Of a stretch of DNA of 22,732 nucleotides, positions 5,460 through 9,496 are shown one piece after another. Origin of the DNA: a virus; the IMG/VR virus record IMGVR_UViG_3300025137_007654, positions 1 to 22,732 of that record. One strand, 5' to 3'. A model generated the notes under the pieces. That model had not been told where the DNA came from and ran no database searches. It saw only the letters and a program-made list of their open reading frames with translations. The position numbers were made by a program, and so were the translations under genes. Within the stretch, counting starts at the first letter, position 1; every line of letters begins with the position of its first letter.

Positions 5460-6101
5460 CTTATTCAAAAACCACTCTTGACCTTTGATAAACTCCTCAT
5501 TAAAGGACTCTAAACCAGGTGAGTTATGTGTAACTAAAATATCACCTACTCCTACTTTAAAACCAGCTTTATTACATTGCATTGAATAATCTAAATCGTA
5601 GAAATGCCATTTAGATGGGCATGATTCATCAAATCTTATTTTTTGAAATACCTTTCTTTTGATAGCCATAAAAACCCCATCAATTATGACTGCTCTATTA
5701 GGGTAAGTTCCAAATGGAGTCATACGCTTTTTACCTTTATTATCTAAATGAGCTACTGCGCCATGTAAATTAGGCGAACCAAATCCTCCACCCATTAAAT
5801 GCCATAACGCGGGTGGTTTTAAATTAACTTCTTTGGAACCAGCGCAGCCTACTACATCATATTTGTTAAATAGTTCCTTTAATTTATCTTCTGTAAAATT
5901 TTCTAAGATAACATCATCGTGAACTAATACTAAGCTTTCAACATTTTCCTGGATTGCGAAGTCAATTGCTTTATTATATACTTTATGAAGGGATTCTTTA
6001 TTATTTTGTTTAAAAACAACAGTAGAATTTTCACTTGTCTTCCAAAGTAGTGTATCTATATCTTTACCTGCAGTAGCTGAAAATATCATGTTATAAATCA
6101 T
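5445..6101 (-). CDS. Glycosyltransferase-like protein (GT-A fold, family 2-like)
   Basis: 218 residues. The N-terminal part lacks a signal peptide. VLVHDDVIL (58-66) resembles the sugar-nucleotide/metal motif of small GT2-like enzymes (HDDV), DGVFMAIKRKVF (141-152) resembles the acceptor-side segment, and WHFYDLDYSMQCNKAGFKV (165-183) followed by THNSPG (191-196, H192) resembles the C-terminal catalytic part with an ED/DxD-like Asp and a conserved His. The acceptor is unknown; it could be phage DNA, a virion protein or host surface glycan. The ATG overlaps the stop of the amidotransferase gene by 4 bases (ATGA), so the two are likely translated together. A second in-frame Met at residue 5 is an alternative start. 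Confidence 0.8.
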   Translation of the reverse strand: MIYNMIFSATAGKDIDTLLWKTSENSTVVFKQNNKESLHKVYNKAIDFAIQENVESLVLVHDDVILENFTEDKLKELFNKYDVVGCAGSKEVNLKPPALWHLMGGGFGSPNLHGAVAHLDNKGKKRMTPFGTYPNRAVIIDGVFMAIKRKVFQKIRFDESCPSKWHFYDLDYSMQCNKAGFKVGVGDILVTHNSPGLESFNEEFIKGQEWFLNKWKTK

Positions 6102-6769
6102 ATGAATGAAAAGGGTGAATCGTGCTTAAACGTACACATCTTATTCCATCTACGAGTCTTCATATTAAGCTTCATTATCACCCCTTCCGGGAGTTCCTTT
6201 AATCCCTCTCCATTTAGAGTTGAGTAGTCACCGTTATTATTATAATGAAGTACTGAACCGGATCTTGCTATAAACACTTCATTAGTACTACAACAAACTA
6301 TACTTAAAGCAAAAGTTCCAGATAAACATTCTAGAGTATCTTTAACTATCTTTTTAGTATTAATAGTTAGTTTATCTTTCTTATATTCAGCTTGCGTAAA
6401 AAACTCTAAAAGATTTACTATAGTATCAGTATCAACACTGGAGTATAAACTATATATTTTATTAAGCTTTTTATGATTGGTAAGAACACCATTATGGCTC
6501 ACCAACCAGGTTAAAGTCTCAAATGGATGTGAGGAACTATAGTTCCAAACTCTTACAGATGAAGTAGGTGCTTGTACATGACCTAGATAATAAAAGGTAT
6601 CAGGTTGATGAGTATACTTATCAAAATCTATATCACCTTTTTTCTTCTTAATATATTGATCATCGTCTGATAGACTTACAATACTGCTTGCAAAATTACC
6701 TCTTTGTTTATTAGCTTCATACAAAACTTCAAACATAGAAGTATTAAAAGAACCAAAGATAGCACACAT
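6098..6769 (-). CDS. Class II glutamine amidotransferase-like protein (stand-alone Ntn domain)
   Basis: 223 residues, the size of one glutaminase domain with no synthase domain attached. Such domains release ammonia from glutamine using the N-terminal cysteine. Visible motifs: Cys2 directly after Met1 (MCAIFGS), R23-G24, GHVQAPTSS (63-71), SHNGVLTNH (91-99), VDTDT (102-106) and LSGTFALSI (149-157). Two deviations: the usual Arg of GHxR is Gln66, and the Asp-rich glutamine-binding site is DTD. Similar proteins with GHxQAPT occur, as I recall, in T4-like cyanophages. The partner enzyme is unknown. Candidates in this window are the coupled glycosyltransferase downstream and QueC, since class II amidotransferase and QueC domains are fused in archaeal Gat-QueC. 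A promoter precedes it. Confidence 0.85.
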   Translation of the reverse strand: MCAIFGSFNTSMFEVLYEANKQRGNFASSIVSLSDDDQYIKKKKGDIDFDKYTHQPDTFYYLGHVQAPTSSVRVWNYSSSHPFETLTWLVSHNGVLTNHKKLNKIYSLYSSVDTDTIVNLLEFFTQAEYKKDKLTINTKKIVKDTLECLSGTFALSIVCCSTNEVFIARSGSVLHYNNNGDYSTLNGEGLKELPEGVIMKLNMKTRRWNKMCTFKHDSPFSFI

Positions 6770-6774
6770 ATACT

Positions 6775-6802
6775 ATTTTAATATATTACAGTTAAATTTC
6801 AA
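6775..6802 (-). promoter_or_regulatory. Predicted early/middle promoter of the amidotransferase gene
   Basis: TTGAAA (6802-6797), 16 bases, TAAAAT (6780-6775), then 5 bases to the ATG at 6769. No Shine-Dalgarno is present. The -35 box overlaps the last codons and stop of the upstream HhH gene. Confidence 0.5.
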
Positions 6803-7251
6803 TCTTCCCAGTCGAACTTAAATCCTTCTTCCCACATATATGAATAGTCTACATATCTACTCATAATACCATCTGGTCCTTCATCTCTAATACGTTCACT
6901 AATACGTCTCATTCTTAAAACCCATTCAGAAGGTTCAGCTATAGCTTTTCGACGTTCCTTTGGTATTCTCCAAAATAAATCAATATTACCATACTTGGTA
7001 TCCTTAGCCAAACTATAGTCAGGATAATCTACACCATCAATAGTAAACCATTTTTTCTTCTTTTTCTTTGTCTTTTCAATGCCTAATTTTTCAAGAGTCT
7101 TTTTACCAAGTCCTTTTACTCTAAATAGATCGTCGTTAGTCCTAAAAGGACGGAAACCTATAATACGAGCTACCGTAGTTTTACCCACCCCTGGTAGTTT
7201 GCATAATTGTTTATCTGACATTTCATTAAAATCCTTATAATTCAGCTTCAT
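6799..7251 (-). CDS. Helix-hairpin-helix (ComEA-like) DNA-binding protein
   Basis: 150 residues. The first 57 form a tandem HhH unit like ComEA: LPGVGKTTVARIIGFRPF (19-36) followed by VKGLGKKTLEKLGI (45-58), both with the GxG hairpin that contacts the DNA backbone without sequence specificity. A run of lysines (about 60-67) links to a C-terminal part rich in Trp, Arg and Asp (LFWRIPKERRKAI, then DGIMSRYVDYSYMWEEGF) that I do not recognise. It has no signal peptide or membrane segment, so it is not a ComEA uptake receptor; a role on phage DNA is more likely. It is divergent from the 490-residue gene, with 17 bases between the starts. AT-rich -10-like sequences overlap there, but no good -35 was found. 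Confidence 0.8.
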   Translation of the reverse strand: MKLNYKDFNEMSDKQLCKLPGVGKTTVARIIGFRPFRTNDDLFRVKGLGKKTLEKLGIEKTKKKKKKWFTIDGVDYPDYSLAKDTKYGNIDLFWRIPKERRKAIAEPSEWVLRMRRISERIRDEGPDGIMSRYVDYSYMWEEGFKFDWED

Positions 7252-7268: not shown

Positions 7269-8741
7269 ATGAGTTCCTTTAATACTTACGACAATTATAA
7301 CTCCTTTATTGATTTAATCAACAGAACAGAGGTGTTGGAAGAGAAAACTTACAAAGCTATGGTCAAAGGTGCTAACTTAGGACCTGAACTTAAAAAGTTT
7401 AGAACAGAAGATGGTAAAGGACTAAGTGCAACTTCTAGAATAAAAAACCTTATTCTAATTAGTGCTTTAGTACAAATGGATCTTTTAGATGATGATGTTG
7501 CTAAGACACTAAAAAGAAAAGCTACATCCTCTTCTTATATTACTAACACCTTAAAGGATTTAGCTCCTAAAGTTCATGCACAATTATTTGATGGTGACAA
7601 TCCAGGTAGTGAAGAGGTTGTAAAATATGTTCAAAAGAATATTGAACAATTATTACCTTTTGCAGTTAAGAATGTTACAAGGGGAGAATATGAGAAAACT
7701 GAAGTTGATACGGAGGTACCAGATGATGTTGAAGCTAAAGAGTTAGAAGATGAGGTAAGTGCTGAAGTTCGTTTAGCTAAGGGATTGATTGATCAAGAAG
7801 CTGATAAAGTTGATCTACCGTTTGATGATGTCGATGTTAATATTGAAGCATTAGATAACAAAGAAGAAGTTGCTGCTAAGATTGTCGAGTTAATTAATAC
7901 TACAAATAATCTTAAAGCAGAGCAAACAGGCGTAGGGTTTAATGTTGAAGGTCCTATTGGTGTATTTGGTTCTGAAGACAAAGTATTAGATCAAATGAAT
8001 AGACTTATTACTAAATTCTTCCCTACTGTTAGAGAGGCTGAAATTAGAGTAACTCTTAATACGGATAGCCGAGAAGAAGATTATGAAGAGGGCCCTGAGC
8101 CCATTGAGCCAGGAGGTCCTGCTAATGAGTACGAAGAAGATATTAATGATGTGGAGGAAGAAGATAATGAGCTTGATGACTTCGATATTGGACCGCAGTC
8201 AGATGAAAATATTCCTGATGATTACGAAGATGTATTAGCTGCTCTTGTTGATGACGATAAGAAGAGACATGCTATGAAGCAACTTAACGGTGAAAATGAA
8301 GAAGGTGGAAAAACAAGGGTATTAGTCGCTTTTGGTCCGGATCATTCTCCAGAAGAGATGCAAGCTAACGTTGATCGTTATCTTGCAGCTGCTAAGAAGC
8401 TTGGTGTTAAGGCTAGAGCTGGTAAGATTAATGATGAGATTGCTGAAGTATACGTTGACGGTGGTCCTGCAAGTACAGAAATGAAACTGCTTGGTGATTT
8501 ACAACGTGATATGTTACAAACTACTGGTTACTTTGGCGGTGACGAAAGACTTCAGAGAGAGAGTATAGTAATGCAACCAATGCTTGAGACACCCAAAACG
8601 GATACATCAGTATATCTTACTGAGCAATCAGCTTCTGATAAACGAAATAAAAAAACTGAAGTTAAAAATCAGTCATTTAAGGAAAGATATAAGCCAAAAA
8701 CGCAATGGCAGTTAGAAGAGCTTAGACGCTACGGTCTCTAA
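7269..8741 (+). CDS. Large acidic hypothetical protein, probably late/virion
   Basis: 490 residues, not recognised. The N-terminal part (1-145) is helical and mixed in charge. A middle region is very acidic, with a stretch at about 265-330 dominated by Asp and Glu (EEDYEEGPEPIEPGG, then NDVEEEDNELDDFD), probably disordered. A compact segment follows at about 350-405, with TRVLVAFGPDHSPEEMQANV, Ala-rich helix and IAEVYVDGG, an alpha/beta pattern. The C-terminus is basic and Gln/Lys-rich, ending QWQLEELRRYGL. It is the only plus-strand gene between two minus-strand replication blocks and has a late-type promoter, so a structural or assembly role is likely. Its stop codon overlaps that of convergent queC. 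Confidence 0.88.
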   Translation: MSSFNTYDNYNSFIDLINRTEVLEEKTYKAMVKGANLGPELKKFRTEDGKGLSATSRIKNLILISALVQMDLLDDDVAKTLKRKATSSSYITNTLKDLAPKVHAQLFDGDNPGSEEVVKYVQKNIEQLLPFAVKNVTRGEYEKTEVDTEVPDDVEAKELEDEVSAEVRLAKGLIDQEADKVDLPFDDVDVNIEALDNKEEVAAKIVELINTTNNLKAEQTGVGFNVEGPIGVFGSEDKVLDQMNRLITKFFPTVREAEIRVTLNTDSREEDYEEGPEPIEPGGPANEYEEDINDVEEEDNELDDFDIGPQSDENIPDDYEDVLAALVDDDKKRHAMKQLNGENEEGGKTRVLVAFGPDHSPEEMQANVDRYLAAAKKLGVKARAGKINDEIAEVYVDGGPASTEMKLLGDLQRDMLQTTGYFGGDERLQRESIVMQPMLETPKTDTSVYLTEQSASDKRNKKTEVKNQSFKERYKPKTQWQLEELRRYGL

Positions 8742-9496
8742 GCACATTTAACGCATTCGTTTTCCTTATATAGTTCTTCAATCTTATCTTGCTGTAGATA
8801 CTTAACTGGGTCTTTATAGCCTGCATTAACAAAGCCCTTTACCCTCATACTACTTGACGGTGTAGTAGCATCAGCTAGACCATCTTCTCTATCTGAGTAA
8901 CAAGTCCAAGTATCGTTAAAGATAACTCCTAATCTAACACCTTCTTTAATAATATCTTCTTTAGACATTACAAGCAAAGGAGCTTCTACTTTAATTCTAT
9001 TCTCTCTATTAAGATCAGTTACGTTATTTACTGTATCTACAAACTCTTCGCTACCATCCCAATAACCAGCTAGCGAATCTACTTGAGCAGCTCCATACCA
9101 TACAGTATCAGCACCTACACTTTCAGCATAAGCAGAGCATATAGATAAAAACATTAGGTTTCTGAACGGTACATACGATACAGGTTGCGCATCACCAGCC
9201 ATATTACTAATATCAGGATTATCGATATCTTTATTAGTTAAAGATGAAGTAGGAGATATGTCTCTAATATAGTTTACATCGAGAACCTTATTAGTTACTT
9301 TTAAATTTACCCAATCACCATATCGACTAGCAAAATTATCAAGTTGTTTATTAACACAACTAAGTTCACGCTTATGTCTTTGACCGTAATCAAAGGTTAT
9401 AGTATGTATTTCTTCAAAGCCTCTATCTTGCGCCATATATAACAGCACAGACGAGTCCATTCCACCACTAAGAGTCAGTACTAGCTTTTTCATCAT
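8738..9496 (-). CDS. queC: QueC-like 7-cyano-7-deazaguanine (preQ0) synthase, zinc site altered
   Basis: 252 residues, near the usual 220-240. QueC converts 7-carboxy-7-deazaguanine and ammonia to preQ0 with ATP; some phages use the pathway to modify DNA guanine. Visible: PP-loop SGGMDSS (10-16), TFDYGQRHKREL (34-45), VPFRNLMFLSICSAYAE (109-125), YGAAQVDSLAGYWDGSEEF (134-152) and TWTCYSDRED (196-205). The usual four-Cys zinc cluster after TW(S/T)C is not intact: C199 is present, but the next three positions (about 209, 212, 215) are Asp, Thr and Ser. The protein ends ECVKCA, adding C248 and C251. The start overlaps the uvsX end by 29 bases (a second ATG is at 9493). No queD, queE, folE or DNA-guanine transferase is in the window. 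Confidence 0.92.
   Translation of the reverse strand: MMKKLVLTLSGGMDSSVLLYMAQDRGFEEIHTITFDYGQRHKRELSCVNKQLDNFASRYGDWVNLKVTNKVLDVNYIRDISPTSSLTNKDIDNPDISNMAGDAQPVSYVPFRNLMFLSICSAYAESVGADTVWYGAAQVDSLAGYWDGSEEFVDTVNNVTDLNRENRIKVEAPLLVMSKEDIIKEGVRLGVIFNDTWTCYSDREDGLADATTPSSSMRVKGFVNAGYKDPVKYLQQDKIEELYKENECVKCA

Follow-up and report, generated by a model that had tools for sequence, protein, structure and literature searches.

A 22.7-kb virus record, IMGVR_UViG_3300025137_007654, analysed over its whole length of 22,732 nucleotides (the window), encodes a QueC-family protein of 252 residues that is a real, conserved and new QueC variant. Its gene likely encodes an active preQ0 synthase of the QueC family with a remodelled zinc knuckle; the protein probably forms the ATP-using (synthetase) part of a glutamine-dependent enzyme that is split over two genes. 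For this variant, we infer catalysis, a contact between the tail cysteine C248 and the knuckle, and the metal state. Zinc has been regarded as a defining feature of QueC and as necessary for its activity. A lineage that lacks three of the ligands but keeps the pathway offers a direct, natural way to ask whether the metal serves catalysis, serves structure or can be dispensed with.

The open reading frame matches the Pfam family PF06508 at 8e-53 (179.5 bits, cut-off 22) and the NCBI equivalog TIGR00364 with 157.1 bits (cut-off 150.3), and the opposite plus strand contains stop codons throughout. The gene shares 29 nt at its start with the end of a UvsX-like gene and 4 nt at its end with a gene on the plus strand. 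Other genes of the window encode a DNA polymerase, a DnaB-like helicase, the UvsX-like recombinase, an SbcC/SbcD-like pair and a single-strand binding protein, a set from which we judge the virus to be T4-like. Feature coordinates are collected in the table below.

Features of the QueC and glutaminase genes in the window (positions in the 22,732-nt stretch)
Feature	Position	Strand	Basis
QueC-family gene, 252 aa, ATG start, three of four zinc cysteines gone	8738..9496	-	ORF list, Pfam, TIGR00364
PP-loop SGGMDS (SGGxDS), residues 10-15, intact	9452..9469	-	alignment
YxQxHxxE as YGQRHKRE, residues 37-44, intact	9365..9388	-	alignment; motif as given in PMC13329287
VPxRN as VPFRN, residues 109-113, intact	9158..9172	-	alignment
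YWDG in place of YPDC, residues 145-148; characteristic of the lineage whose glutaminase is encoded separately	9053..9064	-	alignment
Remodelled zinc knuckle, C199 to R218; C199 and Y200 retained, S201, D209, T212 and S215 in place of the canonical set	8843..8902	-	alignment
C-terminal extension, residues 236-252; modelled helix 236-245, short strand 249-250	8741..8791	-	model, alignment
C248, tail cysteine present almost throughout the zinc-less lineage	8753..8755	-	alignment
C251, second tail cysteine, not constant; forms the CxxC with C248	8744..8746	-	alignment
Separate gene for a class II glutamine amidotransferase (glutaminase; 223 aa, nucleophile Cys2)	6098..6769	-	PF13522, model, conservation

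The canonical C(x)8CxxCxxC zinc site is absent from the window protein. As the preliminary description of this DNA stated, C199 is kept while Asp, Thr and Ser occupy the other three positions (D209, T212 and S215, anchored on R218 and F222), and the protein ends in ECVKCA, which contains C248 and C251. Its further statement that the PP-loop and the substrate segments are intact holds for SGGMDS, YGQRHKRE and VPFRN but not for YPDC, which is replaced by YWDG, a form that nevertheless retains the Tyr and Asp of that substrate motif. K179 is also retained, together with Y200, the essential tyrosine of the zinc region (Y189 in E. coli).

The distribution of this architecture was assessed with six peptide-pattern scans of viral contigs, supplemented by 17 regions of named phage records as a source of relatives; the resulting counts describe the matches listed rather than prevalence. 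In the first scan one pattern fell within the tail, and in a later scan one fell within the CGEC motif. At least 435 QueC open reading frames were reduced to 179 distinct proteins, and removal of four shorter than 205 aa left 175, with a YWD-type motif in 163. Among the matches listed, the YWD lineage comprises 86 proteins without the canonical zinc site (zinc-less) and 77 with all four cysteines. The zinc positions of the zinc-less proteins read C-D-T-S in 75, C-D-S-S in eight, C-D-N-S in two and C-S-T-S in one. A tail cysteine occurs in 84 of the 86 zinc-less proteins versus three of the 77 four-cysteine proteins listed, the two zinc-less exceptions (L049 and L175) being truncated by the contig end. 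A terminal CxxC is found in 39 of the 86 versus none of the 77 among the same matches, and many of the other zinc-less tails end in NNCKEL, GCREIS and similar sequences. Clustering of the YWD lineage at 90% identity yielded 43 zinc-less and 54 four-cysteine clusters. Across the 43 zinc-less clusters, C199, Y200, S201 and S215 are present in all, D209, Q235 and C248 in 42 each, and C251 in 17; position 201 is Ser in 43/43 zinc-less clusters and Glu, Asp or Lys in 54/54 four-cysteine clusters. Several positions in the knuckle and the tail were thus altered together and then remained fixed; C199, S201, D209, S215 and C248 are invariant or nearly so together, and the knuckle has therefore been remodelled rather than decayed. 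That the loss is no chance event is shown by its presence in 86 of 163 YWD-lineage proteins among the matches listed, with D209 in 42 and S215 in 43 of the 43 clusters.

The same alignment answers in part the question raised in the preliminary description, namely whether loss of the cluster and gain of a CxxC coincide among phage QueC proteins. A coincident gain is seen for one tail cysteine (C248, 42/43 clusters) but not for the CxxC (C251, 17/43), and CxxC compensation as a general rule was rejected because C251 is variable. Judged from the alignment, the loss is accompanied by C248, with C251 a partial addition. Two proteins, L216 and L405, combine an intact four-cysteine cluster with a tail cysteine at the corresponding position. 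This is consistent with an order in which the tail cysteine was acquired first and the cluster lost afterwards, without proving it. Outside the window lineage, the site has been lost in the phages immuto (L108, S-D-S-S), RHEph05 (L115, A-T-D-S) and R5C (L113, A-T-D-T), C199 included, and these three proteins have neither a tail CxxC nor a tail cysteine at the place of C248. These independent losses, which have no such tail cysteine, took C199 with them, and the comparison therefore speaks for a link between C199 and C248 in the window lineage.

Among cultured phages whose QueC was read, immuto, RHEph05 and R5C are the only ones with a zinc-less protein. The search for cultured close relatives returned none, as all 327 phage records matched at below 60% identity, the best listed at about 36%, and no bacterial relative was found among 40 pattern-matched stretches from one scan of genome contigs. 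The possibility that these phages have another QueC that does bear zinc was rejected, since each of the 32 records searched (32/32) contains one QueC. Separately, two QueC genes (L012 and L020) lie on one 17-kb contig, IMGVR_UViG_3300030107_007843, reflecting either a duplication or an assembly chimera. The titles and abstract openings found in literature searches report neither a zinc-less phage QueC nor a separate glutaminase beside QueC.

A phylogenetic tree was built from residues 1-195 only, thereby leaving out the trait columns. Over the whole set, at least three changes fall on well-supported branches, and 18 zinc-less rows of the window lineage group together with support of 100/99. 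The zinc-less condition is ancestral within this well-supported group. A single loss within the YWD lineage was not rejected (p-AU 0.236), and it is proposed that the knuckle was remodelled in the phage lineage once or a few times. The coupling of C248 to the loss is represented by few independent events, with one starred independent pair, which are too few pairs for a statistical test.

An AlphaFold2 model of the window QueC, built from 43 sequences, has a mean pLDDT of 86.2 and reaches 97 for tail residues 241-250, so that the tail has a firm place, probably against the C-terminal subdomain. Other short strand residues in the modelled C-terminal part are 208, 227-228 and 233. In a fold search, the nearest structures were Cap9 (9nto, Z 19.3), B. 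subtilis QueC (3bl5, Z 18.8) and 2pg3 (Z 18.1); the nearest solved folds include Pectobacterium (Erwinia carotovora) QueC and QatC.

The proposed partner is a gene labelled as unknown function in PHROG 12378 (phrog_12378). Its product scores 30.4 bits against PF13522 (cut-off 27), and its model (pLDDT 94.5) matches the glutaminase domains of GFAT/GlmS and PurF. The N-terminal cysteine following Met, the HNG motif and the glutaminase fold are all present, and all 50 relatives compared have C2, H92, N93, G94 and D113. Directly upstream of it, positions 6799-7251 encode a helix-hairpin-helix protein with a run of lysines and no PHROG match. On the QueC strand, a glutaminase gene follows downstream in 73/86 zinc-less and 71/77 four-cysteine loci; the loci without one are 18 with less than 4 kb of downstream sequence and L020, with none in 10 kb. 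In the 16 named phage records, it was found in five, namely nt-1, pf16, 1.081.O and 2.275.O (all YWD) and 6E35-1b, whose QueC stands outside the 175-protein comparison. It was not found in the other 11, which comprise nine with an unfused YPDC/FPDC QueC and two with a fused Gat-QueC (YPDN). From this distribution over loci and named records, it follows that presence of the glutaminase tracks the YWD motif and not the zinc state. We propose that the glutaminase donates ammonia to QueC, presumably through contact between the two proteins. A separate glutaminase would explain the ammonia source of T4-like phages with 7-deazaguanine DNA and may also explain their differing YPDC motif.

In the mechanism envisaged, the glutaminase would release ammonia from glutamine, and QueC would use ATP to activate CDG, add the nitrogen and dehydrate the resulting amide to the nitrile, 7-cyano-7-deazaguanine (preQ0). 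Three knuckle cysteines would have given way to Asp, to Thr, Ser or Asn, and to Ser, with a C-terminal extension bearing C248 kept; C199, D209, S215 and C248 would jointly hold the knuckle, with or without metal, and C251 would be optional. A more specific version, which we hold tentatively and rate somewhat short of even probability, is that the C-terminal extension acts as a hook that brings one cysteine to a C199-C248-D209 site with little or no zinc, within a previously unrecognised two-gene preQ0 synthase. Several points weigh against the preferred explanation of an active split synthase with a remodelled knuckle. Loss of three ligands could cost activity, given that zinc is described as required for QueC in PMC13329287; the evidence from phage 6E351A, presented below, comes from a relative of the four-cysteine type rather than a zinc-less one; C248 stands alongside an intact cluster in L216 and L405; and the glutaminase gene of the window lies about 2 kb from QueC with an opposite-strand gene between them.

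Among the alternatives, a metal-free knuckle, in which hydrogen bonds of Asp, Ser and Thr replace zinc, C248 merely packs and preQ0 is made zinc-free, is possible, although we lean against it. The losses in immuto, RHEph05 and R5C, which likewise turned to Asp, Ser and Thr and gave up C199 too, count in its favour, whereas a passive role would not require the retention of C199 and C248 in almost every zinc-less cluster at high divergence. It is unlikely that C248 and C251 rebuild a cysteine zinc site with C199, the CxxC replacing the lost one. The restriction of the terminal CxxC to zinc-less proteins among the matches listed favours such a rebuilding, as does the CxxC of its own (CKPC) found in L282 and L285 from another branch. 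However, the presence of C251 in just 17 of 43 clusters, where the other substitutions are shared, indicates that the CxxC is dispensable, and C199 with C248 alone would supply two cysteine ligands at most.

Evidence on the product comes from the accompanying pathway genes. QueE was found in 24/25 and QueD in 12/32 of the relatives' records, FolE in two of four stretches read, and QueF in 15/27 records, 13 of them above the cut-off. For the zinc-less records, QueF was present in six of 14 and was not found in the other eight, most of which are fragments. The QueF of one zinc-less record has TIGR03138 as its best model (255.8 bits, below the cut-off of 293.45) and carries SNC and ESKS motifs, which we take to resemble those of E. 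coli QueF. As a separate matter, L457:1438-2406 and pf16 gp79 (L101:4999-5943), labelled GTP cyclohydrolase (phrog_5949, pf16 gp79), match QueF models. For Vibrio phage 6E351A, PMC12028318 reports 15% of dG with a mass that fits dPreQ1, and record 6E35-1b, its sister by name, has QueC followed by the glutaminase gene; because of these two observations, that QueC type very likely makes preQ0, and we infer the same product for the zinc-less QueC. In the search for an enzyme that inserts the base into DNA, the DpdA2 family phrog_10773 (nt-1) was detected in two of 26 records, both positive controls, and phrog_887 in three of 27, two of them controls and the third a weak hit at 3e-4, the single DpdA-type match among the uncultured records. 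PF01702 was found in none of 28 but is uninformative, as it failed to pick up phages whose annotation includes such a gene. Records G001-G008 and G033-G046 contain much of the CDG/preQ0 pathway and no recognised DpdA or DpdA2.

A changed product, with the enzyme stopping at ADG, making the archaeosine base as Gat-QueC does, or modifying protein as Cap9 and QatC do, seems improbable. The replacement of YPDC by YWDG, the presence of Cap9 among the nearest folds, and the glutaminase partner, reminiscent of the dG+ makers with a fused Gat-QueC in PMC6884629, would all suit it. By contrast, QueF acts on preQ0 and occurs in six of the 14 zinc-less records (one with TIGR03138 as best model, sub-cut-off), the Tyr and Asp of YPDC are retained, and PADLOC gave only a generic QueC model for the window protein. 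The shifted activity entertained in the preliminary description is thus argued against by QueF in several zinc-less records, and the product of the zinc-less QueC is likely unchanged. A decaying, inactive relic, suggested by loss of the family's hallmark motif, is very improbable given dN/dS values of 0.11-0.14 for zinc-less QueC, which denote purifying selection, 86 related proteins with like replacements, and retention of the PP-loop, YxQxHxxE, VPxRN, K179 and Y200, in agreement with the earlier impression that the protein does not look dead.

Several known systems share features with the active split preQ0 synthase proposed here. Cap9 (CBASS) and QatC (Qat) have the QueC fold, Cap9 ranking top by Z, and both retain the zinc site according to PMC13329287 and PMC13279940. 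PADLOC, run on five window proteins including QueC, returned the generic QueC match and a mad8 match for the UvsX-like gene, and none of the defence partners CD-NTase, QatA, QatB and QatD was found among these five proteins. Canonical QueC (E. coli, B. subtilis 3bl5; cluster 1 of PF06508 in PMC13329287) has the fold, PP-loop, YxQxHxxE and VPxRN in common with the window protein, and both conserve the Lys and the Tyr after the first zinc cysteine. The window protein differs in having D, T and S for CxxCxxC, YWDG for YPDC, a C-terminal extension with C248 and a separate glutaminase gene. The Gat-QueC fusions of phage 9g and relatives, such as JenK1 and Quinobequin-P09, likewise combine QueC with a class II glutaminase, there fused N-terminally to QueC rather than encoded separately as in the window, and the 9g protein yields dG+ according to PMC6884629. 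The two fusions compared (JenK1 and Quinobequin-P09) have all four cysteines and YPDN, whereas the window QueC has neither. The pairs of QueC and phrog_12378 in Vibrio phages nt-1, 1.081.O, 2.275.O and 6E35-1b and in Pseudomonas phage pf16 are of the same split type; in nt-1, passages of PMC6884629 credit dG+ to an ArcS homolog and not to the PHROG 12378 gene. The QueC proteins of nt-1, 1.081.O, 2.275.O and pf16 share the YWD motif with the window QueC but, unlike it, have all four zinc cysteines and no tail cysteine, and in those Vibrio and pf16 phages the glutaminase gene directly adjoins QueC, in contrast to its more distant placement in the window.
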